In this document: positions 3,683-19,044 of the stretch, piece after piece | Position numbering within the stretch: the first letter of the stretch is position 1 | Layout: each line of letters opens with the position of its first letter | Origin: a virus | Direction: 5' to 3' (one strand) | DNA length: 30,631 bases | IMG/VR virus record: IMGVR_UViG_3300029922_000233 | Location: 1-30,631 of that record | The notes under the pieces: generated by a model | What the model was told of the DNA's origin: nothing | Seen by the model: the letters and a program-made list of their open reading frames with translations, nothing else | Databases searched by the model: none | Made by a program: the position numbers and the translations under genes

Positions 3683-4003
3683 ATGTACGAATTCAACAAG
3701 GTAAGATTGAGAGAGCCAGAAGGACACACAGCAGAGAGCTTATTAGCCAAGTTATACGATCTGCTTGAAGAGGCTAGCGACGAAGGAATTGATAACGCAG
3801 AAGAGATTAAGTTTGCTCTACAGTGCGCTGATTTCGAGCCTAAGCTGACTAAGTTTATCGTTGATAGCAAAATAAGTCAAAGGGTGTGTATTGCGGTCCT
3901 CAGTGCGACGGTTGCAGGACAGATTAAGAAAACTCCACATCCTTATTCTGCACAGAAACAGGTATTTGATGCGATGAGCAAGATTATTAACACAAGGGAT
4001 TAA
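3683..4003 (+). CDS. Hypothetical helical protein
   Basis: A 106-residue, mostly helical soluble protein (MYEFNKVRLREPEGHTAESL) with AAAAGGAAAA upstream of the ATG. It ends one base before the rtcB start, so it is probably co-transcribed with the RNA-repair genes. No family recognised. Confidence 0.65.
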   Translation: MYEFNKVRLREPEGHTAESLLAKLYDLLEEASDEGIDNAEEIKFALQCADFEPKLTKFIVDSKISQRVCIAVLSATVAGQIKKTPHPYSAQKQVFDAMSKIINTRD

Positions 4004-4004
4004 G

Positions 4005-5201
4005 ATGCGTAGAGAAGGCAAGATTACCATTTTTGGAGACGATCACGAGCCTGAATGTTTAGATCAAATGAGAAGGATATGTGAGGATGATGATGTATAT
4101 GGTGCGGTGCTTTGCGGCGATGCTCATTTTGGTTATTCTGTACCCGTTGGCGGTGTTGTTGCGTACAGGGATAAAATTAATGTTAATGGCGTGGGCTTTG
4201 ACATTGCGTGTGGAAATGAGGCTGTACGAGTCAATGCAGATGCCACCGAAGTCCGAAAAGACATCTACAGAACCATGAACGAAATACAAAAACACATATC
4301 TTTTGGCATTGGCAGAAAGAATAATGAAAGGGTAGAACATGAGCTTTTCGACGATCCTGTGTGGGACATTTTGCCTTTTCTGGCTTTACTCAAGGACAAG
4401 GCGCGTTCACAGCTTGGCACAGTCGGCAGCGGTAATCATTATGTTGACTTGTTTGTGGACGAGAGGGACAACGTCTGGATTGGCGTTCATTTTGGGAGTA
4501 GAGGTTTGGGGTATACTATTGCGAGTGAGTTCATCAAAGCAGGAGGAGGCGTAGATGGAATTAATGCAAAACCAGTGTTATTTGATGTCAATTCAGACCT
4601 CGGACAGCAATATCTTATGTGCATGGAATTGGCTGGTAGATACGCTTATGCAGGACGGAGCTGGGTATGTGAAAGAGTTGCACAAATACTCAGGGCCGAT
4701 ATTTTGGAAGAAGTTCACAACCATCACAATTTTGCCTGGAATGAAAGACACAAAGATTCCAATGGTCAGGATCAAGATTTATGGGTCGTCCGAAAGGGAT
4801 CAACTCCTGCATTTCCTGGTCAAAAGGGGTTTGTTGGAAGCTCTATGGGAGAAGTATCTGTCATTATTGAAGGGGCCGAGCGAGACAAATGGCCTAACGA
4901 TGTCTTCTACTCTACGGTGCATGGAGCAGGCCGTGTCATGGGTCGCACAGCCGCCGTTGGAAAGACAAAGAATGGACGAGTTGTTAAAGAAGGGCGTGTT
5001 AAAAGAGATGAACATGAGGCTTGGATGCAGCGAGCAGGAGTCGAAGTGCGAGGTGGTGGACTTGACGAATCACCTTACTGCTACAAACGACTGCCCGATG
5101 TGTTAAAAGCGCATGGAAATAGTATAAAAGTGCTGCATTGGTTAGTGCCGATAGGGGTATGTATGGCCGATGCGCGAGAAAGAGACCCATATAAGGATTA
5201 G
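4005..5201 (+). CDS. rtcB: RtcB-type 3'-phosphate RNA ligase
   Basis: RtcB joins RNA 2',3'-cyclic phosphate or 3'-phosphate ends to 5'-OH ends using GTP and divalent metal. The 398-residue protein carries the family signatures: GVGFDIACG (62-70, metal ligands D66 and C69), GSGNHYVD (141-148, H145), VHFGSRG (161-167, H162), HNHHNFA (238-244), RKGSTPA (263-269), and STVHGAGR (303-310) with H306 the expected guanylylated histidine. All core residues I know are present, so it should be active. Length fits the shorter bacterial/phage RtcB class. AAGGGATTAAG lies upstream of the ATG. No archease gene is visible next to it. It opens the RNA-repair island. Confidence 0.93.
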   Translation: MRREGKITIFGDDHEPECLDQMRRICEDDDVYGAVLCGDAHFGYSVPVGGVVAYRDKINVNGVGFDIACGNEAVRVNADATEVRKDIYRTMNEIQKHISFGIGRKNNERVEHELFDDPVWDILPFLALLKDKARSQLGTVGSGNHYVDLFVDERDNVWIGVHFGSRGLGYTIASEFIKAGGGVDGINAKPVLFDVNSDLGQQYLMCMELAGRYAYAGRSWVCERVAQILRADILEEVHNHHNFAWNERHKDSNGQDQDLWVVRKGSTPAFPGQKGFVGSSMGEVSVIIEGAERDKWPNDVFYSTVHGAGRVMGRTAAVGKTKNGRVVKEGRVKRDEHEAWMQRAGVEVRGGGLDESPYCYKRLPDVLKAHGNSIKVLHWLVPIGVCMADARERDPYKD

Positions 5202-5205
5202 GAAC

Positions 5206-5514
5206 ATGGAAGTAATACTAGATGCCGAGTCAGGGACAGAAAAACTCAATGACAAGGCGCATGATTTAGTTCAAAAGGCAATAAATGGCATACTTGGTGC
5301 TCTAACAAAGACATTAAGCGGCAGAAGTGATGAATTAGGCACAAGTGCGGATAGTTTAGCTTTAAATATACTGGTTGGCTCACTCTTTGGTATTGTTCAG
5401 GGTAATATTCCACAACAATATCAAGAGGAATTTGTTCAATTGGTCGCTAATGCCCTAAGAAACAACTTTGCACACTATAACGAATGGATTAAGACCAATG
5501 GCGATAAAGATTGA
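5206..5514 (+). CDS. Hypothetical helical protein in the RNA-repair island
   Basis: The ATG at 5206, just after the rtcB stop and behind AGGATTAGGA, is preferred to 5170, which lies inside rtcB. It yields 102 residues, MEVILDAESGTEKLNDKAHD onward, helical, with a moderately hydrophobic middle (SLALNILVGSLFGIVQGNI) that is too interrupted to be a clear membrane helix. It overlaps the next gene's start by 17 bases. Not recognised; by position it could assist RtcB or the phosphoesterase, but nothing in the sequence shows it. Confidence 0.65.
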   Translation: MEVILDAESGTEKLNDKAHDLVQKAINGILGALTKTLSGRSDELGTSADSLALNILVGSLFGIVQGNIPQQYQEEFVQLVANALRNNFAHYNEWIKTNGDKD

Positions 5515-6184
5515 TTGCGTTTCTGATTTGCATGGGGCTTATCCTGTGTTGTACGGTGGTGATCTGCTTATTGTGGCTGGGGACTTAACGGCGTGCGATA
5601 GATTAGACCAATACGCGCAGTTTTTTATATGGTTAGCAAGACAGCAATACAGGAAAAAGGTAGTTATAGGTGGCAATCACGACGGGTTCTTTACAGGGGT
5701 CAATCCGAAAGAAGCGGCTAAGGAACTTGTTGGGATGGGTGGCTATGACTTCGAGTATCTATGTGATTCAGCTTGTGAGTTTGAGGGCTATAAGATCTGG
5801 GGCGCGCCTTGGACACCGATCTTTTACGACTGGCACTTCATGCTTAATAGGCAAGATATCGCTAAGAAATGGGCACTCATACCAGAAGACACAGACATAC
5901 TTATCACACATGGGCCTCCTTTTGGTACGCTAGATACGGTTAGTCCGCGCAGAACACATAGATGCGGCTGTGAAGAATTAGCGTCCAGATTAGAGCAACT
6001 GCAAGACTTAAAGCTGCATGTATTTGGTCACATTCATGGAAGTGGGTTGAGTTATATCAAGAAAGGTGATACAGTTTTTGTAAACGCCTCAATTTTAGAC
6101 GAAGATTATAGGCCCAAAGAAGGATACGTTCGATGCAATTGCCTAGATTCCTTATTTATGCCCTCCTTAATCCAGACACGCTAG
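5498..6184 (+). CDS. Calcineurin-like metallophosphoesterase (MPPED-like)
   Basis: Start at ATG 5498 gives 228 residues beginning MAIKIDCVSDLHG. The complete metal-binding set is present: SDLHG (D10, H12), GDL (D29), GGNHD (N60, H61, D62), ITHGPP (H138) and FGHIHG (H178, H180). The HGPPFGTLD and FGHIHG context resembles the MPPED/239AB branch of metallophosphoesterases. In this location a plausible job is removal of 2',3'-cyclic or 3'-terminal phosphates from RNA, but the substrate cannot be read from sequence. The C-terminus is abnormal: after NASILDEDYRP (196-206) the usual ending is lost and replaced by residues read from the start of the homing endonuclease gene. Confidence 0.88.
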   Translation: MAIKIDCVSDLHGAYPVLYGGDLLIVAGDLTACDRLDQYAQFFIWLARQQYRKKVVIGGNHDGFFTGVNPKEAAKELVGMGGYDFEYLCDSACEFEGYKIWGAPWTPIFYDWHFMLNRQDIAKKWALIPEDTDILITHGPPFGTLDTVSPRRTHRCGCEELASRLEQLQDLKLHVFGHIHGSGLSYIKKGDTVFVNASILDEDYRPKEGYVRCNCLDSLFMPSLIQTR

Positions 6185-6876
6185 AAGTGAAATACATAGG
6201 ACAAAGCACTAATGGAATAGGAAGATACACATCACACTTTCATCCGAATCAACTGAAACTAAAAACACCCAAATCTGATTGGATAAATGGGCTTCTGGTA
6301 TCAGGGAAATACCCAGCATTCGTAGTTTTGGAAACTTGTTTATGGGATCAACTGAATGAACGAGAAATGTTTTGGATAGACTATTATGGAACGCAACTTG
6401 TGAATACAGCCAAGGGAGGTAAAGGCGGAAATACGGGAGGTGGCCAATCTAGACGTTGTCCCATTTATGCCATTAATCTGGAAACCAACCAAAGACTTGA
6501 TTTTGAACATATATGGCAAACGCAAGAAGCTGGATTTATTCCATCAAAAGTTGTTGCTGTGTGTAAGAAAAAAAGACTTTCTCATAAAGGGCATGTTTTT
6601 TTCTATCAAGAGGATCAACAAGATATTATCCATAGACGCTACTCGTGCAACAAGTCCTCAAAAATGATTCAAGCTACATGTAGAAGTACTGGACAACAAC
6701 ATATATTTAATTCCATTGAGCAGGCTTCAAACATCCTAAATATCTCTCGAGAGTCAATCTCTAATCACGTAAACGGGAAATGCACTAATAGAAAATATAA
6801 ATTATCTGTTTACAACGCTGCGCACATGGACGAAGACTACAACCCAGTAAACCCACCAATAACCATCGTAATGTAA
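6133..6876 (+). CDS. GIY-YIG homing endonuclease with NUMOD-type repeats
   Basis: A 247-residue protein. The N-terminal part has LIYALLNPDTLEVKYIGQS (7-25), the GIY-YIG nuclease core, then IGRYTSH (R31) and NEREMFWIDYYGT (76-87, catalytic-type Glu). The C-terminal half has segments such as FNSIEQASNILNISRESISNH typical of NUMOD1 DNA-binding repeats. AAGAAGGA precedes the ATG. The gene overlaps the phosphoesterase by 52 bases, and its last residues, NAAHMDEDYNPVNPPITIVM, look like the missing end of that phosphoesterase. This argues that the element inserted into the 3' end of the phosphoesterase gene. Confidence 0.85.
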   Translation: MQLPRFLIYALLNPDTLEVKYIGQSTNGIGRYTSHFHPNQLKLKTPKSDWINGLLVSGKYPAFVVLETCLWDQLNEREMFWIDYYGTQLVNTAKGGKGGNTGGGQSRRCPIYAINLETNQRLDFEHIWQTQEAGFIPSKVVAVCKKKRLSHKGHVFFYQEDQQDIIHRRYSCNKSSKMIQATCRSTGQQHIFNSIEQASNILNISRESISNHVNGKCTNRKYKLSVYNAAHMDEDYNPVNPPITIVM

Positions 6877-6888
6877 AACTGCTTTACA
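6872..6888. promoter_or_regulatory. TGTAAA/TTTACA inverted repeat
   Basis: TGTAAA (6872-6877) and TTTACA (6883-6888) are separated by ACTGC, at the 3' end of the endonuclease gene. No T-run follows, so a terminator is unlikely. The same half-sites recur near 13668-13695 and 30166-30182, suggesting an operator or promoter element. Confidence 0.35.
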
Positions 6889-6899
6889 ACACACAAGAC

Positions 6900-6928
6900 T
6901 TTACACTAAAAACTTTAATTGATATATC
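6900..6928 (+). promoter_or_regulatory. Candidate promoter for the first RNA ligase gene
   Basis: TTTACA (6900-6905) and TATATC (6923-6928) are 17 bp apart, matching 5 of 6 and 4 of 6 consensus positions. It lies in the 79-base gap between the homing endonuclease and the RNA ligase at 6956, the only gap of any size in this part of the island. Confidence 0.4.
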
Positions 6929-6955
6929 TAGCCTTTTGACAACATGGGGTGAGTC

Positions 6956-7897
6956 ATGGCTGGGATGGTATTTGTTGGTAGAGTTATTAGTTTAGATAAG
7001 ATTGAGGGTGCGGATCTCATTTGCTGTGCTACTGTAGTCTGTGGGCAAGGTGGCAAGTGGAGAGGAGTCGTACGCAAAGCAGAATTCGACATAGGGACAA
7101 TGTGCGATGTGTTCCTTCCTGATGCGCTAATTCCCGAAAATCTACATAGCGAGTTTGCGTTCCTAGAGTCCACCCGATTCATTGTAAAGATGCGTCGATT
7201 CAAAGGCTCACCATCCGAAGTAGTCATCTTGCCACAGCAGTCACATGGCGAGATAGGCGACGACGTTTCACACTATTATGGCGTTACCAAGTTTGAAAAG
7301 CCCATCCCTGGAAACCTAGCTGGATACGCGGCTGGAAACTTCCCTCCATTCATTCCTAAGACAGACGAACCTAATTGGCAGAGAAGCGGCGATGTGATAG
7401 AAGCATGGAACGAGCCTGCAATCATTACGCTAAAGTGCGACGGCAGCTCAACAACGGCATTCAAATTAGACGGAGAGTTAAGGATATGTTCGCGAAACCT
7501 AGAACTTCAACACAGCAAATCAAACGGATATTGGGCTATGGCTATAAAGCACGACTTAGCCGCAAATTTACCAGAAGGGACAGCTTTGCAATGGGAGACT
7601 TGTGGGCCAGGTATCCAAAAGAATCCGATGGGGCTAACGGAAGTCTCAGCTTTTTGCTTTGGAGGCTACAATATTACAGAGCGCAGGTACATGACATATA
7701 CTGAATTGACAGAGCTATGCGAAAAAATTAATTTCCCTATGGCTCCTTTCATTAAGCGTTTAGACACCCTACAAGGCGTTGACATCGAAAGCCTAGGTAG
7801 ACTCAACTATAGCAATGGAAAGCCAGCAGAAGGCATTGTAATAAGAAATGAGAGCTATTCCAAACACATGAAGGTAATTAACTTGGATTTCAAATGA
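6956..7897 (+). CDS. ATP-dependent RNA ligase, Rnl5/DraRnl-like
   Basis: A 313-residue nucleotidyltransferase that should seal 3'-OH/5'-phosphate RNA nicks through a lysyl-AMP intermediate. Motif I is TLKCDGSS with K160 as the adenylated lysine. IPKTDEPNWQ (133-142), RICSRNLELQ (176-185), ALQWETCGPGIQKN (210-223, motif III Glu214), EGIVIR (292-297, motif IV) and HMKVINLDFK (304-313, motif V) follow in order. About 130 residues precede the ligase core, as in the Deinococcus radiodurans RNA ligase (DraRnl), whose N-terminal domain is an OB fold; this order is unlike Rnl1 or Rnl2. GGGG lies before the ATG. The next gene starts within its stop codon. Confidence 0.85.
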   Translation: MAGMVFVGRVISLDKIEGADLICCATVVCGQGGKWRGVVRKAEFDIGTMCDVFLPDALIPENLHSEFAFLESTRFIVKMRRFKGSPSEVVILPQQSHGEIGDDVSHYYGVTKFEKPIPGNLAGYAAGNFPPFIPKTDEPNWQRSGDVIEAWNEPAIITLKCDGSSTTAFKLDGELRICSRNLELQHSKSNGYWAMAIKHDLAANLPEGTALQWETCGPGIQKNPMGLTEVSAFCFGGYNITERRYMTYTELTELCEKINFPMAPFIKRLDTLQGVDIESLGRLNYSNGKPAEGIVIRNESYSKHMKVINLDFK

Positions 7898-8091
7898 GTA
7901 GATCGTACAGAAAGCCTTACGCCACACAGCAAGGTAAGGCCAAGAAGTTTTTTAAGCAGAATTTCAATCAAGACATACGCAAAGAAGACGACATACCAGA
8001 TGGAAACGCATACCGTAAGATGAGGAATTCATACGACATATCGGACTACAGATGGCTATGCGAAGACGATCCAAAGCTGAGACGGAAATGA
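7894..8091 (+). CDS. Small basic hypothetical protein
   Basis: Sixty-five residues, MSRSYRKPYATQQGKAKKFF onward, with many Lys/Arg in the first half and an aromatic-acidic end (YDISDYRWLCEDD). Small phage proteins beginning MSRSYRK and ending with a similar DIxDYxW segment are familiar to me, but without known function. The start overlaps the ligase stop (ATGA) and the end overlaps the next start (ATGA). Confidence 0.7.
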   Translation: MSRSYRKPYATQQGKAKKFFKQNFNQDIRKEDDIPDGNAYRKMRNSYDISDYRWLCEDDPKLRRK

Positions 8092-8270
8092 ACGAGATAA
8101 CAGTACAGCCTCAATACGAATATGCTGAGGTAGAGTTTAGAGAGGTCACGATAAAGGAGAGAACGGCATTAATCGAGGAGGCTTATCAATGGAAACTGAA
8201 AATTAAGCGAATCGAGGAAGAGAATGAACCGAAGCTACGAGTACAATGTCCTTCAAGGGGGCGGCAATAA
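8088..8270 (+). CDS. Small hypothetical protein
   Basis: Taking the ATG at 8088, coupled to the preceding stop, gives 60 residues (MNEITVQPQYEYAEVEFREV). An earlier ATG at 8052 would overlap the previous gene heavily. The protein is a charged helix in its second half (KERTALIEEAYQWKLKIKRI). Overlaps the next gene by 47 bases. Function unknown. Confidence 0.55.
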   Translation: MNEITVQPQYEYAEVEFREVTIKERTALIEEAYQWKLKIKRIEEENEPKLRVQCPSRGRQ

Positions 8271-8595
8271 CTGGAGCTACAGAGAGAGAGACAACGGCGA
8301 AGACTGGGAAGAAGAGAGCATCCGATTACTGCATAAGTACAAAAGGGGCACTCTAGGCATTAAGTTTGGCGGCGTACTCACAGAAGACCAAATGGAGACC
8401 TATAGAGCGGCTTTTGAGATGAAGGGATGGAAGAAGATCACAGACGACAACGAAAGGCTGTCATGGGTCAATCCTGAGAATACATGGTGCAGTAGCGTTA
8501 ACAAGAAGACTGGACAGTGGTTAGAGATAGATAGTCAATGGGTTAGAAACTTAAACATGACGAGGGCAAATGGCGACAAAACCGATCTTGGGTAA
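8224..8595 (+). CDS. Hypothetical protein
   Basis: A 123-residue soluble protein with an aromatic, acidic N-terminus (MNRSYEYNVLQGGGNNWSYR) and several tryptophans. GAGGAAGAGA lies just before the ATG. Its 3' end overlaps the second RNA ligase gene by 26 bases, so the two are probably translated together. No family recognised. Confidence 0.65.
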   Translation: MNRSYEYNVLQGGGNNWSYRERDNGEDWEEESIRLLHKYKRGTLGIKFGGVLTEDQMETYRAAFEMKGWKKITDDNERLSWVNPENTWCSSVNKKTGQWLEIDSQWVRNLNMTRANGDKTDLG

Positions 8596-9298
8596 ATGCT
8601 ACGGTTCAATAGGTCACTTACCAGGCAGCAAGACAGGACCAGGTGATCACGTAATGACAGGCGGACAAGTCAAGATTCTCACCGAAAAAGCCAGGGATAA
8701 GCACGACGAAATCATAGTGCAGGAGAAACTCGACGGCTCTTGTGTCGGCGTATTGATGAAAGAAGGCCAGATTATCCCAATAATCCGAGCAGGCTATACG
8801 GCGGCATATGCAAGGCGCAAACAGCATAGATACTTCAATAGATGGGCTTATGGGAACTATTGGCTGTTTGATTGGCTACCAGAAGGCTGGCGTGTTGTAG
8901 GGGAATGGCTGCTTCAAATTCACTCGATCTCTTATGACATCGCGCACCGTAGCCCATTCGTCGCGTTTGATATCTTCGACAATGACAATAAAAGAATTTG
9001 TTATAGCGAATTTTGCATGTTGTGTGATAAACATGGAATAGAGGCAGCTCCTTTACTACACAGAGGCGGCCCATGCAGTATAGAGAAGGCGGAAAAAGAG
9101 CTTGGAGTATATGGGTATTACGACGCTAGACTGCCTGCTGAGGGTATGGTTTGGCGTGTGGAAAGAAAGGGACAGGTAGACTTCCTTGGCAAATATGTGC
9201 GTAAAGGCTTCGATACTGGCGGAAGGCTAGAAGAAGAGATTTACAACATAGACCCAGAGAAGATTATGCCTAAAAGTAGTATGGAAATGGTGAGTTAA
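8570..9298 (+). CDS. ATP-dependent RNA ligase, Rnl2-like family
   Basis: A 242-residue ligase-fold protein, compact and lacking the N-terminal domain of the ligase at 6956. Motif I is EKLDGS (52-57, K53 adenylated). Also present are RAGYTAAYA (73-81), VVGEWLL (109-115, E112), PFVAFDIFD (129-137, motif IIIa), AEGMVWR (190-196, motif IV) and GKYVRKG (207-213, motif V lysines K208 and K212). It fits the broad Rnl2/PF09414-type group. Its presence beside an RtcB and a DraRnl-like ligase means three chemically or structurally distinct sealing enzymes in 5.3 kb. GAGGG precedes the ATG closely. Confidence 0.85.
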   Translation: MATKPILGKCYGSIGHLPGSKTGPGDHVMTGGQVKILTEKARDKHDEIIVQEKLDGSCVGVLMKEGQIIPIIRAGYTAAYARRKQHRYFNRWAYGNYWLFDWLPEGWRVVGEWLLQIHSISYDIAHRSPFVAFDIFDNDNKRICYSEFCMLCDKHGIEAAPLLHRGGPCSIEKAEKELGVYGYYDARLPAEGMVWRVERKGQVDFLGKYVRKGFDTGGRLEEEIYNIDPEKIMPKSSMEMVS

Positions 9299-9577
9299 AT
9301 GAGATTATGTCCTTATTGCGAAATTGAAAGACAGGAAATTGAGTTTTATGCAAATGCTTCTACAGATTGCAAACTTTCGACTTATTGTAAAAGATGTGTA
9401 GGAAAGTTAGCTAATCCACCTAGAGGAGACAGAGAAGAATTTTTAAAGCTTACAATAACTCTTGCGCCTGAACTTTATTATGCGCTAAAGAAAATGTCGT
9501 TAAATAAAAGGTGCGAAGGAAAAAAAGATTCTGGAACTTCTGAACTTATAAGAGAGGCGATCGGAAGATTTATTTAA
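9299..9577 (+). CDS. Zinc-ribbon plus ribbon-helix-helix-like protein
   Basis: Ninety-two residues. C4-P-Y-C7 and C30-K-R-C33 form a zinc ribbon like those found at the front of many phage nucleases and DNA-binding proteins. The second half, LKLTITLAPELYYALKKMS ... SGTSELIREAIGRFI (49-92), has the strand-helix-helix spacing of ribbon-helix-helix DNA-binding domains. It may be a small regulator. It begins right after the ligase stop and ends 4 bases before tRNA-His. Confidence 0.65.
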   Translation: MRLCPYCEIERQEIEFYANASTDCKLSTYCKRCVGKLANPPRGDREEFLKLTITLAPELYYALKKMSLNKRCEGKKDSGTSELIREAIGRFI

Positions 9578-9581
9578 TATG

Positions 9582-9652
9582 GTGACGATAGCTTAACGGT
9601 AAAGCAATGGATTGTGGTTCCATAGATTAGGGTTCAATTCCCCATCGTCACA
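9582..9652 (+). tRNA. tRNA-His (anticodon GTG)
   Basis: The cloverleaf reads clearly: acceptor GTGACGA (9582-9588) with TCGTCAC (9645-9651), D arm GCTT/AAGC (9591-9605), anticodon arm ATGGA/TCCAT (9607-9623) with loop TTGTGGT giving anticodon GTG, 4-base variable loop, and T arm with loop TTCAATT (9633-9639). One T-stem pair is A-C mismatched. A G at 9581 could supply the G-1 typical of tRNA-His; the base after the acceptor is A and CCA is not encoded. Confidence 0.88.
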
Positions 9653-9930
9653 ATGATAGAAGCCCAAGTGCGAGGCAACCAGATAGTGGATCGCCCAGGA
9701 AATAACACAAGAATACCTGGCAATTGGAGAGATAAAACGTCCTCCCTATCGTACCTATCGGTGGTTCAATTCCATCAAGGAGTACAACTTGGCAGTAGGG
9801 TGGGTAAACTGCACGAGAAACAGTTCCATAGGGCGGCTGTTAACGCGTAATAGCTCTAAGGTTTACGGTATCCCTTAACCCGTACGAGAGTGTGGTGCGA
9901 GGACTCGTTAAAATCTAGTAACACACACAT
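9653..9930 (+). other. RNA-like spacer between the two tRNA genes
   Basis: This 278-base gap has no convincing gene; the 65-residue frame starting at 9653 has no ribosome binding site and an unnatural composition. It contains a tRNA-like T arm (GGTGG, loop TTCAATT, CCATC; 9760-9776) with no matching 5' tRNA half, and several short hairpins: CCAGG/CCTGG (9695-9720), GCAGT/ACTGC (9792-9812), TACGG/CCGTA (9864-9884) and GTGTG/CACAC (from 9890). It could be degenerate tRNA genes or an undescribed small RNA. Confidence 0.4.
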
Positions 9931-10001
9931 GCCACAATAGTTTAGCGGTAAAACCACTGCCTTCCAAGCAGAAGTCGTCAGTTCAATTCTGTCTTGTGGT
10001 T
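9931..10001 (+). tRNA. tRNA-Gly (anticodon TCC)
   Basis: Acceptor GCCACAA (9931-9937) pairs with TTGTGGT (9994-10000) with one G-U, D arm GTTT/AAAC (9940-9954), anticodon arm 9956-9972 with loop CTTCCAA giving anticodon TCC, T loop TTCAATT (9982-9988). Discriminator U fits glycine. One mismatch occurs in the anticodon stem and one in the T stem. CCA is not encoded. Confidence 0.85.
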
Positions 10002-10858: not shown

Positions 10859-12193
10859 TTGGCTAACATCACACTCCCTTACGGCTATTCGCCTCGCCCC
10901 TATCAAATAAATGTTTTAAACGCGCTAGACTCTGGCAAGAAGAATATATGCTGGGTTGTCCATCGGCGTGGTGGCAAAGACACGACTATGTGGAACTATA
11001 TGATTAAGCGAGCATTCCTAGAGCCTGGGATTTACTACTACTTCCTGCCCACCTTCGCACAAGCAAAACGAGTTATTTGGGACGGCATGATTAACGACGG
11101 TAAACGGATGTTGGACTACATACCAAAAGCGATCATTGATGGTAATGTGAACAACACTGAAATGAAGGTATGGATTAATGGGGCGAAGGGTCAGAGCCTT
11201 ATCCAGTTGGTCGGCGCAGAAAATTATGATAACATTATGGGTACGAATCCAAGAGGTGTAGTGTTTAGCGAATGGAGCTTGATGGACCCAATGGCCTACG
11301 AGTTTATAAAGCCAATACTTGCGGCGAATAAGGGATGGTGCGCGTTTATCTTTACTCCGAGGGGCAAAAATCATGGATGGGACTTGTATCAGATCGCAAA
11401 AAATAATCCTGATGACTGGTTTTGTGAGGTTCTGACTGTTGAGGACACGAAAATTGTGATGACCCCAGCGGATATAGAAACGGAGCGGCGAAAAGGGATG
11501 CCCGAAGATCTTATTCAGCAGGAGTTTTATTGCAACTTTAACAGGGGACAAGAGGGAGCTTACTATGGACGACAAATGGAAGAATTGGCAAGAAAGGGAC
11601 ATATCACTCACGTTCCTTATGATCCTGCTGTGCCCGTCAGAACTTATTGGGATTTAGGCATAGGAGACTCTACAGCTATATGGTGGGCACAATTTGTTCA
11701 CAAAGAGATCCACCTGGTAAACTACTATGAGAATTCAGGAGAAGGACTAGCTCACTATATACGCGTCCTGGATGATTATCGTCGAGAAACAGGATGCGTT
11801 TATGATTTGCACGTGGCTCCGCATGACATATCAGCCAGGGAGTTGACAACGGGCAAGTCTCGTCTGGAAACAGCTCGCCGCCTTGGGATATCCTTTCGCG
11901 TAGCACCAAAGTTAAGTCTCGAATCAGGGATAGAAGCTGTACGCATGACACTTCCTCGCTGCTGGTTTGACAAGAAAGCATGTGAACACGGTGTGAAATG
12001 TCTCGAAGGCTATAGGAAGACTTACAATGAGAAATTTCGGGTTTACGGGGAGAAGCCTTTTCATGATTGGTCGTCTCACGGGGCGGATGCTTTTCGGATG
12101 ATGGCGATAACGGAGAATGACTTTCGGCCTGATTCTGGGGTGAGTGACAACGATTATGACAACATGAAAGCGCGATGGGGTTGGCAAGCTTAG
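10859..12193 (+). CDS. terL: Terminase large subunit (packaging ATPase/nuclease)
   Basis: The 444-residue packaging motor cuts the DNA concatemer and pumps DNA through the portal. ATPase part: Walker A HRRGGKDT (35-42), Walker B VVFSEW (134-139) and coupling segment FIFTPRGK (163-170). RNaseH-like nuclease part: YWDLGIGD (263-270, D265), APHDISA (320-326, D323) and DWSSHGADAF (403-412, D403/D410). Start is a TTG at 10859 with AGGA about 5 bases upstream; no ATG fits the N-terminus. Both catalytic sites look intact. A minus-strand gene overlaps its 3' end antisense. Confidence 0.95.
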   Translation: MANITLPYGYSPRPYQINVLNALDSGKKNICWVVHRRGGKDTTMWNYMIKRAFLEPGIYYYFLPTFAQAKRVIWDGMINDGKRMLDYIPKAIIDGNVNNTEMKVWINGAKGQSLIQLVGAENYDNIMGTNPRGVVFSEWSLMDPMAYEFIKPILAANKGWCAFIFTPRGKNHGWDLYQIAKNNPDDWFCEVLTVEDTKIVMTPADIETERRKGMPEDLIQQEFYCNFNRGQEGAYYGRQMEELARKGHITHVPYDPAVPVRTYWDLGIGDSTAIWWAQFVHKEIHLVNYYENSGEGLAHYIRVLDDYRRETGCVYDLHVAPHDISARELTTGKSRLETARRLGISFRVAPKLSLESGIEAVRMTLPRCWFDKKACEHGVKCLEGYRKTYNEKFRVYGEKPFHDWSSHGADAFRMMAITENDFRPDSGVSDNDYDNMKARWGWQA

Positions 12194-13728: not shown

Positions 13729-15705
13729 GTGCCAACGGATTACGACATTGTTTCGGATTTTACGCAAGATTACGAACGCGCCTACATGCTTTTAAACACT
13801 TATTATGCAGAGGCTTATAGGGATGTGGGATTCTACCTTGGCAACCAGTGGAGTTTAGAACAGCTTAGATACCTGGACCAAGAGCGGCGTAATGCGTTTA
13901 CCTATAACAAAGTACGCAAGATCATCAACATGGTCAGCGGATACCAGAAGGCGCACGCAAACGCAAGTATAGTCGTTCCATTCGAGGGAAGTTCAGAAGA
14001 CACAGCCAACCAATTAACGGAGCTTCTACGCCATGTAATGCAGCCTAATGGGTATAGATTAATTTCTAAAGCGTTTCATGGGAGTCTTGTGAGCGGACTT
14101 TCGTGGCTTTCGCCGTGGATAGATTATAGAAAAGATTATGTGAATGGAAAAATCGACTTTCACTTAGACAACTGGAATGATGTAATTTTTGACCCCTTCA
14201 CTACGCGCGCAGACCTTGAAGACTGCACCTTTATGGCTAGGCGTAAGTATCTGAGCAAAGACCAGATTAAATCACTTGTGCCTGGTAATGAGCGCGAAAT
14301 TGACAGTATGGGCTATGGCAACCGCGACGAAAAATTTACTTATGAACCTTACGCACGTCAATGGGGGCTTCAAGAATTGCTCGCCTATAACGAATACTGG
14401 AAACAGAGATACGTTAAAGGCCAGATTTTACTCGACCTGGTAACTGGTGAACAGAGACCGTGGAAAGGAGATGCGCGCCGATTAGATATGTATAAGCGCA
14501 TGTTCCCGAATGTCGCCGTTATCGAGGGCTACTACAAGACCGTAGAATATAATGTGATTGTAGAAAATAGGTTACTTTACAGCGGCGAAGATCCCTGGGG
14601 AATAGGCGAATACCCATTTGTCCCATTCTTCACAGTGTTTGATAGCTCCTACGACCTGTTTCAGTGGAAGATACAGGGCTTAGTCCGTATTCTCAGAGAT
14701 CCGCAAGAGGAGTATAACAAGCGTAAGTCCAAACTCTTAGACATTGTTGACTCTCAAATTGGCTCTGGCTGGAAGGCTAAATCAGGGGCCGTTTCAAACC
14801 CTAAGTCGCTATTCCAGACGGGACAAGGCAAAGTTATTTATTTCAATCCTGGGTTCGAACTAACGGACGCAGAACGTATTGATCCACCAACTATACCTGA
14901 ATCTCTCTTTGTGATGCAAGAGCAATTTGACAAAGACATGACTGACACGGTGGATATCTCTAACCTGCAACAAGATGACACTGACCGCATGAGTTCGGTG
15001 TTATTCCAGATGAAGCAGGCGATGGGAATGATGGGCTTAGGCGGAATTTTCGACAACTTGCGTGAGAGCCAATACTTACTCACCAAGAAGGTCTTAAAGA
15101 TGATTCAGAAGTACACCCCAGAGAAGGTGGAAAGAATTATCAAAGAAGAACCCACACCAGAACTACGTAACATGACTTTCTTGGATTACGACGTAGATGT
15201 GGTCGAAGCTGTAATGACAGACACGCAAAAACAATGGGCGTTCTTACAAGCTTGGACGATGAAACTGGGTGGGGCAGCAGTACCAGACGAGATGCTGTGG
15301 GAGTTGTCGCCTTTCCCGATTCAGAAGAAGTTCATGCAGAAGATTGCCGCCGACGCAGAAGCACAGAAGGCACAGGAGCAACAGGAACTCGAAGACAAGC
15401 AAATGGTCAACAAGCTACTGGAGGCGAAGGCATATGGAGACGTGGCACTGGGAGAAGAAAGACTATCAAGGATCAAGTACGACGCTGCGCTTAGTGAAGA
15501 ACGACTTGCTGCGGCACAGGAAGAACGAGCCAGAAGTGTTTTGGATATTGTCAGAGCAGGAAAAGAGTTTCAAGAGATGGACATTAATAACGCTGCTCGA
15601 ATCCTGGACATCATTAAAGGCATTGAAGAAGAACAAAGATTTAAGGCGGCTGAGACGGTTGTAGAGCAGCCAGCCGTGAAAAAACCTACCAAAGTTGGAG
15701 AATAG
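13729..15705 (+). CDS. Portal protein, P22 type
   Basis: A 658-residue portal, the dodecameric ring at the tail vertex through which DNA passes. The opening (YYAEAYRDVGFYLGNQWS, then RRNAFTYNKVRKIINMVSGYQ at about 53-73) and the long helical tail (about 530-640, Glu/Gln/Ala-rich) match the P22-like portal family with its C-terminal barrel. GTG start at 13729 with AGGG upstream; no better ATG. First gene of the virion operon. Length is close to that of P22 gp1 (725). Confidence 0.88.
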   Translation: MPTDYDIVSDFTQDYERAYMLLNTYYAEAYRDVGFYLGNQWSLEQLRYLDQERRNAFTYNKVRKIINMVSGYQKAHANASIVVPFEGSSEDTANQLTELLRHVMQPNGYRLISKAFHGSLVSGLSWLSPWIDYRKDYVNGKIDFHLDNWNDVIFDPFTTRADLEDCTFMARRKYLSKDQIKSLVPGNEREIDSMGYGNRDEKFTYEPYARQWGLQELLAYNEYWKQRYVKGQILLDLVTGEQRPWKGDARRLDMYKRMFPNVAVIEGYYKTVEYNVIVENRLLYSGEDPWGIGEYPFVPFFTVFDSSYDLFQWKIQGLVRILRDPQEEYNKRKSKLLDIVDSQIGSGWKAKSGAVSNPKSLFQTGQGKVIYFNPGFELTDAERIDPPTIPESLFVMQEQFDKDMTDTVDISNLQQDDTDRMSSVLFQMKQAMGMMGLGGIFDNLRESQYLLTKKVLKMIQKYTPEKVERIIKEEPTPELRNMTFLDYDVDVVEAVMTDTQKQWAFLQAWTMKLGGAAVPDEMLWELSPFPIQKKFMQKIAADAEAQKAQEQQELEDKQMVNKLLEAKAYGDVALGEERLSRIKYDAALSEERLAAAQEERARSVLDIVRAGKEFQEMDINNAARILDIIKGIEEEQRFKAAETVVEQPAVKKPTKVGE

Positions 15706-18099: not shown

Positions 18100-19044
18100 A
18101 TGCCAATTACAACGACCTCACAAGTCCCTCCCGAAGTGAGAACATACTTCGACAGGCTCTTGCTTACTCTAGCGAGACCTTATTACATTTACGACATGTT
18201 TGCCCAAAAGCGAACAATCCCTCTGAACAGTGGTGACCAGATGATTTTCCGTCGTTATGCCACTCTCAGCGCAGCCACAGTGCCTATTACCGATGGAACA
18301 ACCCCTCCAGGCGATACCTTGGCCGTTACAGACTTCTCCACTCAAATTCGCTGGTACGGAAACTTTGTCACTATTACAGACCAAGTTCAGTTCACAGTAC
18401 AGGATAGAGTGCTTAATGAGGCCACAAGGGTGCTCTCACTACAGCTAGGATTGACAATTGACACTTTAATCAGAAATATGATGGTGGCAACAGCAAGTTC
18501 TATCTCTTGTAGTGCAGGTGTGAACGGGAATACACCAACAGAGATAACAACTCAAGACATTAAAGTTGCCGTCAGAGCACTACGTCTGGGCAATGCTCGA
18601 TTAATGACCAAGCCTATAATGGGTGAGAACAGGTTCGCCACCTCTCCAGTGCGTTCTAGCTACTGGGGCTTTATGGATGTGACTCTACAGGCCGACTTAG
18701 AGGCATGTGCTGACTTCTTGAGTGCTGCTAACTACCCGAACCCAATGGATGCACTTGAGGCTGAATGGGGTTCTACCAATAACGTGAGATGGCTTTTGTC
18801 AACTAACGGATACAACAATGGAGCTTCAACGCCTGTATGGAACAACATTATACTCGGACAAGAAGCATACGGTGTAGTCAAGCTTGGAAGTAAAGAGGCC
18901 GAATTTATCGTTAAGCCATTAGGTTCTAGCGGCACATCTGACCCCTTAAACCAAAGAGGCTCAGTAGGTTACAAGTATCCATTCGCTACACGTATCCTCA
19001 ACGACAACTGGATCACTCGCCTACTCGCAACCCAAAGACTATAA
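18100..19044 (+). CDS. Major capsid protein, N4-gp56 type
   Basis: A 314-residue protein beginning MPITTTSQVPPEVRTYFDRL. The pattern of an early F-x-R-x-L-L-x-x-A-[RK], then KRTIPLNSGDQMIFRRYATL (36-55) and the conserved central VTITDQVQFTVQDRVLNEA (92-110) matches the N4-gp56 family of HK97-fold coat proteins as I know it. AGGTAGAT lies just before the ATG. Forms the icosahedral shell. Confidence 0.88.
   Translation: MPITTTSQVPPEVRTYFDRLLLTLARPYYIYDMFAQKRTIPLNSGDQMIFRRYATLSAATVPITDGTTPPGDTLAVTDFSTQIRWYGNFVTITDQVQFTVQDRVLNEATRVLSLQLGLTIDTLIRNMMVATASSISCSAGVNGNTPTEITTQDIKVAVRALRLGNARLMTKPIMGENRFATSPVRSSYWGFMDVTLQADLEACADFLSAANYPNPMDALEAEWGSTNNVRWLLSTNGYNNGASTPVWNNIILGQEAYGVVKLGSKEAEFIVKPLGSSGTSDPLNQRGSVGYKYPFATRILNDNWITRLLATQRL

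Follow-up and report, generated by a model that had tools for sequence, protein, structure and literature searches.

Genomic context and gene content

The stretch of DNA analyzed here, the IMG/VR viral contig IMGVR_UViG_3300029922_000233 (30,631 bases, hereafter the window), encodes four enzymes and two tRNAs within ~6 kb upstream of the terminase gene, all on the + strand: the RNA ligase RtcB, a metallophosphoesterase (MPE), an Rnl5-type RNA ligase and a compact RNA ligase, followed by tRNA-His and tRNA-Gly (Table 1). In the preferred reading, a podovirus-like phage of ~40 kb devotes this portion of its accessory region to RNA repair. Taken together, the enzymes, the gene company and the association with tRNA genes suggest that it is probably a modular, kinase-free toolkit for the repair of RNA or tRNA with no obligate pathway, in which the MPE has a probable role. 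An earlier note, made from the sequence alone, had listed the five gene types and both tRNAs, and domain, PHROG and tRNA scores agreed with it at each position, the domain scores lying far beyond chance. It had overlooked an open reading frame (ORF) of the GIY-YIG type that overlaps the MPE gene at its 3' end.

Relatives were found by scans with the terminase, the major head protein (MCP) and RtcB, and 46 near-complete sequences were compared using our own profiles (genomes are given as G numbers and loci as L numbers). By comparison with these relatives (~40 kb), ~10 kb may be absent from the window, and a gene missing here is not finally missing from the phage.

Table 1. Features of the island and landmark genes of the window (positions are those of the window)
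Feature	Coordinates	Strand	Assignment or remark
RtcB, 3'-phosphate or 2',3'-cyclic-phosphate / 5'-OH RNA ligase, 398 aa	4005-5201	+	PF01139, phrog_1075
Small ORF, 114 aa, between RtcB and MPE	5170-5514	+	without homologue in the 46 relatives
MPE, calcineurin-type, MPPED/class III phosphodiesterase-like	5498-6184	+	PF00149, MPPED2, PDC-S10
GIY-YIG/NUMOD homing-endonuclease ORF	6133-6876	+	overlaps MPE 3' end; outside repair function
Rnl5 (DraRnl/NgrRnl, DRB0094-like) ATP-type RNA ligase, 313 aa	6956-7897	+	N-terminal OB region
Compact nucleotidyltransferase RNA ligase, 242 aa	8570-9298	+	PF09414, phrog_38169
tRNA-His (GTG)	9582-9652	+	66 bits; CCA not encoded
tRNA-Gly (TCC)	9931-10001	+	60 bits; CCA not encoded
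Terminase large subunit (TerL)	10859-12193		PHROG match
Portal	13729-15705		PHROG match
Major head protein (MCP)	18100-19044		PHROG match

RNA ligases of two chemistries

RtcB was identified by PF01139 (203 bits, curated cut-off 27) and phrog_1075 (8e-69). The window RtcB keeps all six residues that correspond to D95, C98, H203, H234, H329 and H404 of the P. horikoshii enzyme, namely the metal ligands and the guanylylated histidine, and its D66, C69, H145, H162, H241 and H306 were unchanged across nine phage homologues. In the RtcB tree, genes of the window's phage group formed one clade separate from bacterial RtcBs, and RtcB was therefore taken to be an old resident of this group. A bacterial origin of the cluster was rejected, as 80 bacterial RtcB loci had neither MPE nor Rnl5 nearby. 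One RtcB from an 8.3-kb contig of a 'Deltaproteobacteria' bog metagenome-assembled genome (L372, PLEQ01000006.1) nests within the phage clade; the contig probably comes from a phage and was misassigned to the bacterium during binning.

The Rnl5-type ligase matched PF09414 (70 bits), phrog_968 (1e-31) and the OB profile PHA02142 (26.5 bits, cut-off 27). Its best solved structure was the Naegleria gruberi RNA ligase NgrRnl (E = 7e-27, residues 16-260), which the family profile matched at 8e-47. Motif I (KCDGS) is present, and K160, D162 and G163, together with E292, G293 and K306 of motifs IV and V, were invariant in relatives. The enzyme shares with Deinococcus DraRnl (DRB0094) and NgrRnl an N-terminal OB region, a nucleotidyltransferase domain and a motif I of the form KxDGS, but scored 75.8 bits against the NCBI equivalog TIGR02306, under the 151-bit cut-off. 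As far as its sequence places it, it is thus a distant relative of DraRnl-type enzymes and no TIGR02306 equivalog, and the DraRnl-like label given earlier holds at that distance.

The compact ligase matched PF09414 (79 bits) and phrog_38169 (3e-53, function listed as unknown), with motif I KLDGS present. Sequence and profile searches for a T4 Rnl2 chain returned none, only the PF09414 domain being shared; of the earlier label 'Rnl2-like', the ligase domain and the motif stand and kinship with T4 Rnl2 was not demonstrated, so the label itself is better abandoned. The best PDB match, a weak one, was the archaeal ligase Pab1020, and a structure model built from a three-sequence alignment was not used (predicted local distance difference test, pLDDT, 44). 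In G080 and G083 a homologue lies near Rnl5, matching the layout of the window; one adjoins MPE and RtcB in G042 (L024), and another occurs in the RtcB genome G073. Compact PF09414 ligases are found instead of Rnl5 in some RtcB genomes (G071, G073, G074 and G076). Beside the tRNAs (9299-9577) a small protein is encoded that contains CxxC pairs and whose C-terminal part resembles a ribbon-helix-helix; it has relatives in G036, G050 and G061.

Enzymes of each ligation type with intact catalytic residues are therefore encoded, as had been claimed, and the mutated active sites that the earlier note would have held against a repair system were not seen.

The metallophosphoesterase

A calcineurin-type phosphoesterase had been predicted between the ligases, and the MPE matched PF00149 (48 bits) and MPPED2 (5e-36 by sequence; 5e-18 by fold, the best match). 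Its structure model (pLDDT 93) was closest to MPPED2, then to GpdQ and Rv0805. The motifs of the class III/MPPED enzymes (D-x-H, GD, GNH[D/E], H and GHxH) were all found together with the fold, and the metal ligands D10, H12, D29, N60, H61, H138, H178 and H180 were invariant or nearly so among 41 phage homologues. An MPE homologue in G034 (L188, 4116-4805) has GCLHG where others have SDLHG; a metal-ligand aspartate is lost, and this copy is possibly inactive.

The family usually terminates in NASHVNERYKPVNKPVRIEL or a similar sequence, and the window MPE departs after NASILDEDYRP. The last ~20 codons of the homing-endonuclease ORF encode NAAHMDEDYNPVNPPITIVM; this is the original C-terminus of the MPE, now displaced, and a partial duplication (6060-6876) keeps its codons in the reading frame of the endonuclease. 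Read from the sequence, the MPE core is intact and its C-terminus was changed by the homing-endonuclease insertion. A group I intron carrying the GIY-YIG ORF was rejected, with no Rfam match in the island.

tRNA genes and the search for a kinase

The acceptor of tRNA-His (GTGACGAT/ATCGTCAC) fits G-1:C73. At least two tRNA genes were present in 10/19 genomes with RtcB or Rnl5 and in 3/28 others (p = 0.002); this threshold was one of several cut-offs tried, and p = 0.07 was obtained for at least one tRNA. The 278 bases between the tRNAs (9653-9930) hold no convincing gene and include a T-arm-like stretch, GGTGGTTCAATTCCATC. A structured RNA in this interval was considered and rejected, since no Rfam family exceeded its threshold and folding gave no signal (z = 0.79).

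The earlier note saw no 5'-kinase, and this was upheld. The polynucleotide kinase family PF13671, the kinase family searched, was not found in the 46 near-complete relatives, a weak match in G011 being rejected as a ParA-like ATPase. A Walker A scan gave no match in proteins of at least 80 aa in the window, outside which ~10 kb of the phage may lie. Among the island proteins there was likewise no match to RtcA, RtcR or archease, nor to the Hen1 methyltransferase domain. Promoter and terminator scans were at or below chance, and a search of bacterial genome contigs for an MCP relative that would point to the host found none. The RtcB of Tunturiibacter phage Tunturi_5 hints at Acidobacteriota as a place where a cultured relative may be sought.

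Gene association in related phages

RtcB, MPE and Rnl5 occur together in the window and in seven of the 46 relatives (G005, G012, G020, G039, G040, G041 and G043). Partial sets comprise RtcB with MPE in four genomes and MPE with Rnl5 in two, one of which (G011) holds an RtcB remnant (L157, ~3848-4012; C-terminal part, 58-77 aa) beside its MPE and Rnl5, probably through gene loss. Thirty-nine genomes of the set were found via MCP or TerL, that is, not picked for RtcB, and served as an unbiased sample for Fisher tests, in which all three pairs were associated (RtcB-MPE, p = 0.008; RtcB-Rnl5, p = 0.004; MPE-Rnl5, p = 0.009). When 225 ORF families were scanned openly, small clade-linked families set aside, strong association with RtcB was confined to MPE, Rnl5 and ORFs that read these same genes antisense or in an alternative frame. 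The full trio is present at five or more separate places in the portal tree.

For a wider sample, RtcB and Rnl5 profile scans added 30 genomes of ~40 kb. MPE was present in 5 and Rnl5 in 1 of the 14 new RtcB genomes, and MPE in 10 of the 16 new Rnl5 genomes. When all genomes were pooled, MPE was present in 21/29 Rnl5 genomes, 17/29 RtcB genomes and 7/28 genomes with neither ligase, and RtcB in 9/29 Rnl5 genomes; the pooled tests mix ascertainments and ignore phylogeny (MPE-Rnl5, p = 0.0005; MPE-RtcB, p = 0.016; RtcB given Rnl5, p = 0.018; Rnl5 given RtcB, p = 0.07). Judged by these counts, MPE is tied to the ligases more firmly than RtcB and Rnl5 are to each other, the latter pairing being a tendency seen in part of the phage group. 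Across the 46-genome set, the wider sample and the window, MPE was present in every genome that has RtcB together with Rnl5 (9/9).

Where RtcB and Rnl5 are co-present they lie on the same strand (8/8) less than 4 kb apart, in 6/8 within ~0.6 kb. The tight pairs vary: MPE overlaps RtcB in G012, Rnl5 overlaps MPE in G040, and RtcB and Rnl5 are 5 bp apart in G043. An Rnl5-type ligase also lies ~165 bases from an E. coli-like RtcB in an unrelated group of phages (L352, 3346-5660; L355, 200-2517). The same group also encodes a single-strand-binding protein.

Several results weigh against a joint repair function, as do two points on the MPE given in the next section, and these results also suit the alternative that the genes are independent cargo, kept separately in a hot accessory zone by the terminase gene, so that the island is accidental. 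At least one of RtcB, MPE and Rnl5 is lacking in most relatives. Single genes are frequent among the 46 (RtcB in G036, G037 and G058; Rnl5 in G002 and G004; MPE in seven), RtcB adjoins TerL by itself throughout one subgroup (L248-L250, L257, L258, L262, L266 and L270), and RtcB was present in 0/16 of the further Rnl5 genomes. A quarter of the genomes with neither ligase hold an MPE nonetheless. A test of phylogenetically independent pairs was consistent in direction and not significant, with only 5-8 pairs and significance thus out of reach. Set against this are the pairwise associations, all positive, among the genomes not picked for RtcB, the MPE in every genome with both RtcB and Rnl5, the tight though varied adjacency on one strand, and the Rnl5-RtcB neighborhood in the unrelated phage group; an accidental island was accordingly judged unlikely. 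An obligate trio was rejected too, since the wider scans gave many single-gene genomes. Occurrence only singly and at unrelated loci, which the earlier note had named as an argument against a system, was found in part: singles are many, yet co-occurrence is above expectation. The repair system it proposed is thereby retained as enzymes that co-recur, are often adjacent and lie in tRNA-richer genomes, and given up as a fixed system. The data support an association that is real and recurring but loose, and unusual for a small phage.

Role of the metallophosphoesterase

The substrate of a metallophosphoesterase cannot be predicted from its sequence (PMC4222275), and RtcB has its own cyclic-phosphodiesterase step and therefore does not need the MPE. 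It is a real possibility, if somewhat short of an even chance, that the ligases alone repair RNA and that the MPE is an anti-signaling (or defense) phosphodiesterase destroying cyclic-nucleotide immune signals. Its closest structures are cyclic-nucleotide or glycerophosphodiester phosphodiesterases, it is often found without ligases, and it strongly matches the PADLOC candidate defense family PDC-S10 (6e-65). A literature search for a published PDC-S10 mechanism found none, and no ligase was found in the short surroundings of bacterial PDC-S10 relatives. The enrichment of the MPE with both ligases, however, speaks for a link to repair, as does the preference of the class III enzymes Rv0805 and SpdA for 2',3'-cyclic nucleotides in the literature; for Rv0805 this preference for 2',3'-cyclic nucleoside monophosphates is given as ~150-fold in work cited by PMC4222275. 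An enzyme of the MPPED/Rv0805 type would probably open or remove cyclic phosphates on RNA ends, or act on free 2',3'-cyclic nucleotides.

Proposed mechanism

RtcB acts on 3'-phosphate or 2',3'-cyclic-phosphate and 5'-OH ends; ATP-type ligases require 3'-OH and 5'-phosphate (reviewed in PMC7824862). On the repair reading, anti-phage ribonucleases would cut host tRNAs and perhaps other RNAs, and the mode of repair would be chosen by the type of end. RtcB would be guanylylated and would join 2',3'-cyclic-phosphate or 3'-phosphate to 5'-OH, the ends that ribotoxins and metal-independent anticodon nucleases produce. For the ATP-type ligases, the substrates would be the 3'-OH/5'-phosphate ends from metal-dependent nucleases, such as the Toprim nuclease of PARIS and the PIN nuclease VapC; these nucleases make such ends directly, and a 5'-kinase would therefore be unnecessary. 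T4 requires a kinase because its challenger nuclease makes cyclic-phosphate/5'-OH ends. The phage tRNA-His and tRNA-Gly may replace destroyed host tRNAs. Toprim cleavage of this kind is described for PARIS AriB, which yields 3'-OH/5'-phosphate ends (PMC12409363), and phage tRNAs restore translation after tRNA-cutting defense (PMC11555353, PMC10264068).

A stricter form of this proposal would be a two-chemistry module without a kinase, with RtcB for cyclic-phosphate/5'-OH ends, Rnl5 and the compact ligase for Toprim or PIN 3'-OH/5'-phosphate ends, and the MPE clearing 2',3'-cyclic phosphates or their signals; it is offered tentatively and is rather doubtful. We know of no demonstration so far of a phage repair set directed against metal-dependent tRNases such as PARIS.

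The ligases might instead serve the phage's own RNA metabolism (mRNA upkeep, or processing linked to mobile introns or homing endonucleases) with no part in counter-defense. Homing endonucleases, like interruptions of TerL and MCP, are frequent among the relatives, and one endonuclease lies in the island. Against this, the splicing of group I introns and inteins needs no ligase, the island yielded no group I intron, and the tRNA-gene association points to tRNA, all of which makes such a role highly improbable. With respect to the interrupted genes themselves, TerL measures 834 aa in G059 and G060 and ~500 aa in G035, G040, G041, G043, G047, G049 and G054, and MCP is split in G003, G023, G030, G037 and G040. 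The frequent enlargement or splitting of these genes suggests inteins, introns or homing endonucleases in the phage group.

Comparison with known systems

Bacterial Pnkp systems pair a metallophosphoesterase-type phosphatase with an RNA ligase, a likeness to the island. Unlike the Pnkp-Hen1 and Pnkp1-Rnl-Hen1 systems (PMC4411300), the island has an MPPED-like MPE, and kinase and Hen1 were not found. With T4 Pnkp-Rnl1 it shares phage ligases, tRNA genes and a presumed target, tRNA cut by host nucleases; here the Pnkp kinase/phosphatase and Rnl1 were not found and RtcB is added. The E. coli RtcB-RtcA operon (RtcR-regulated, PMC7790460) has the RtcB ligase in common, but the partner genes are not matched in the island and the phage RtcB clade is separate. 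Jumbo phages offer a parallel in composition, for example the Burkholderia phages BcepSaruman and BcepSauron, whose repair sets comprise RtcB, Rnl1 and Rnl2 (PMC7824862): RtcB, ATP-type ligases, tRNAs and phosphoesterases occur in one phage and are interpreted as counter-defense. The present set differs in belonging to a ~40-kb phage group, in occupying 6 kb, in its DraRnl-type and compact ligases and MPPED-like MPE, and in that the kinase family was not found. Phage repair with several ligase types is thus already known from jumbo phages; the unusually compact combination is new.

Implications

Bacterial defenses are increasingly found to cut tRNA, leaving two types of ends, of which the T4 kinase and ligase mend one. 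If the repair reading holds, the ATP-type ligases would by themselves rescue phages from metal-dependent tRNases such as PARIS, and cuts of the PrrC type would be countered by RtcB alone; the island supplies compact genes for such tests. The phage family phrog_38169, for which no function is listed, gains a likely role as an RNA ligase.

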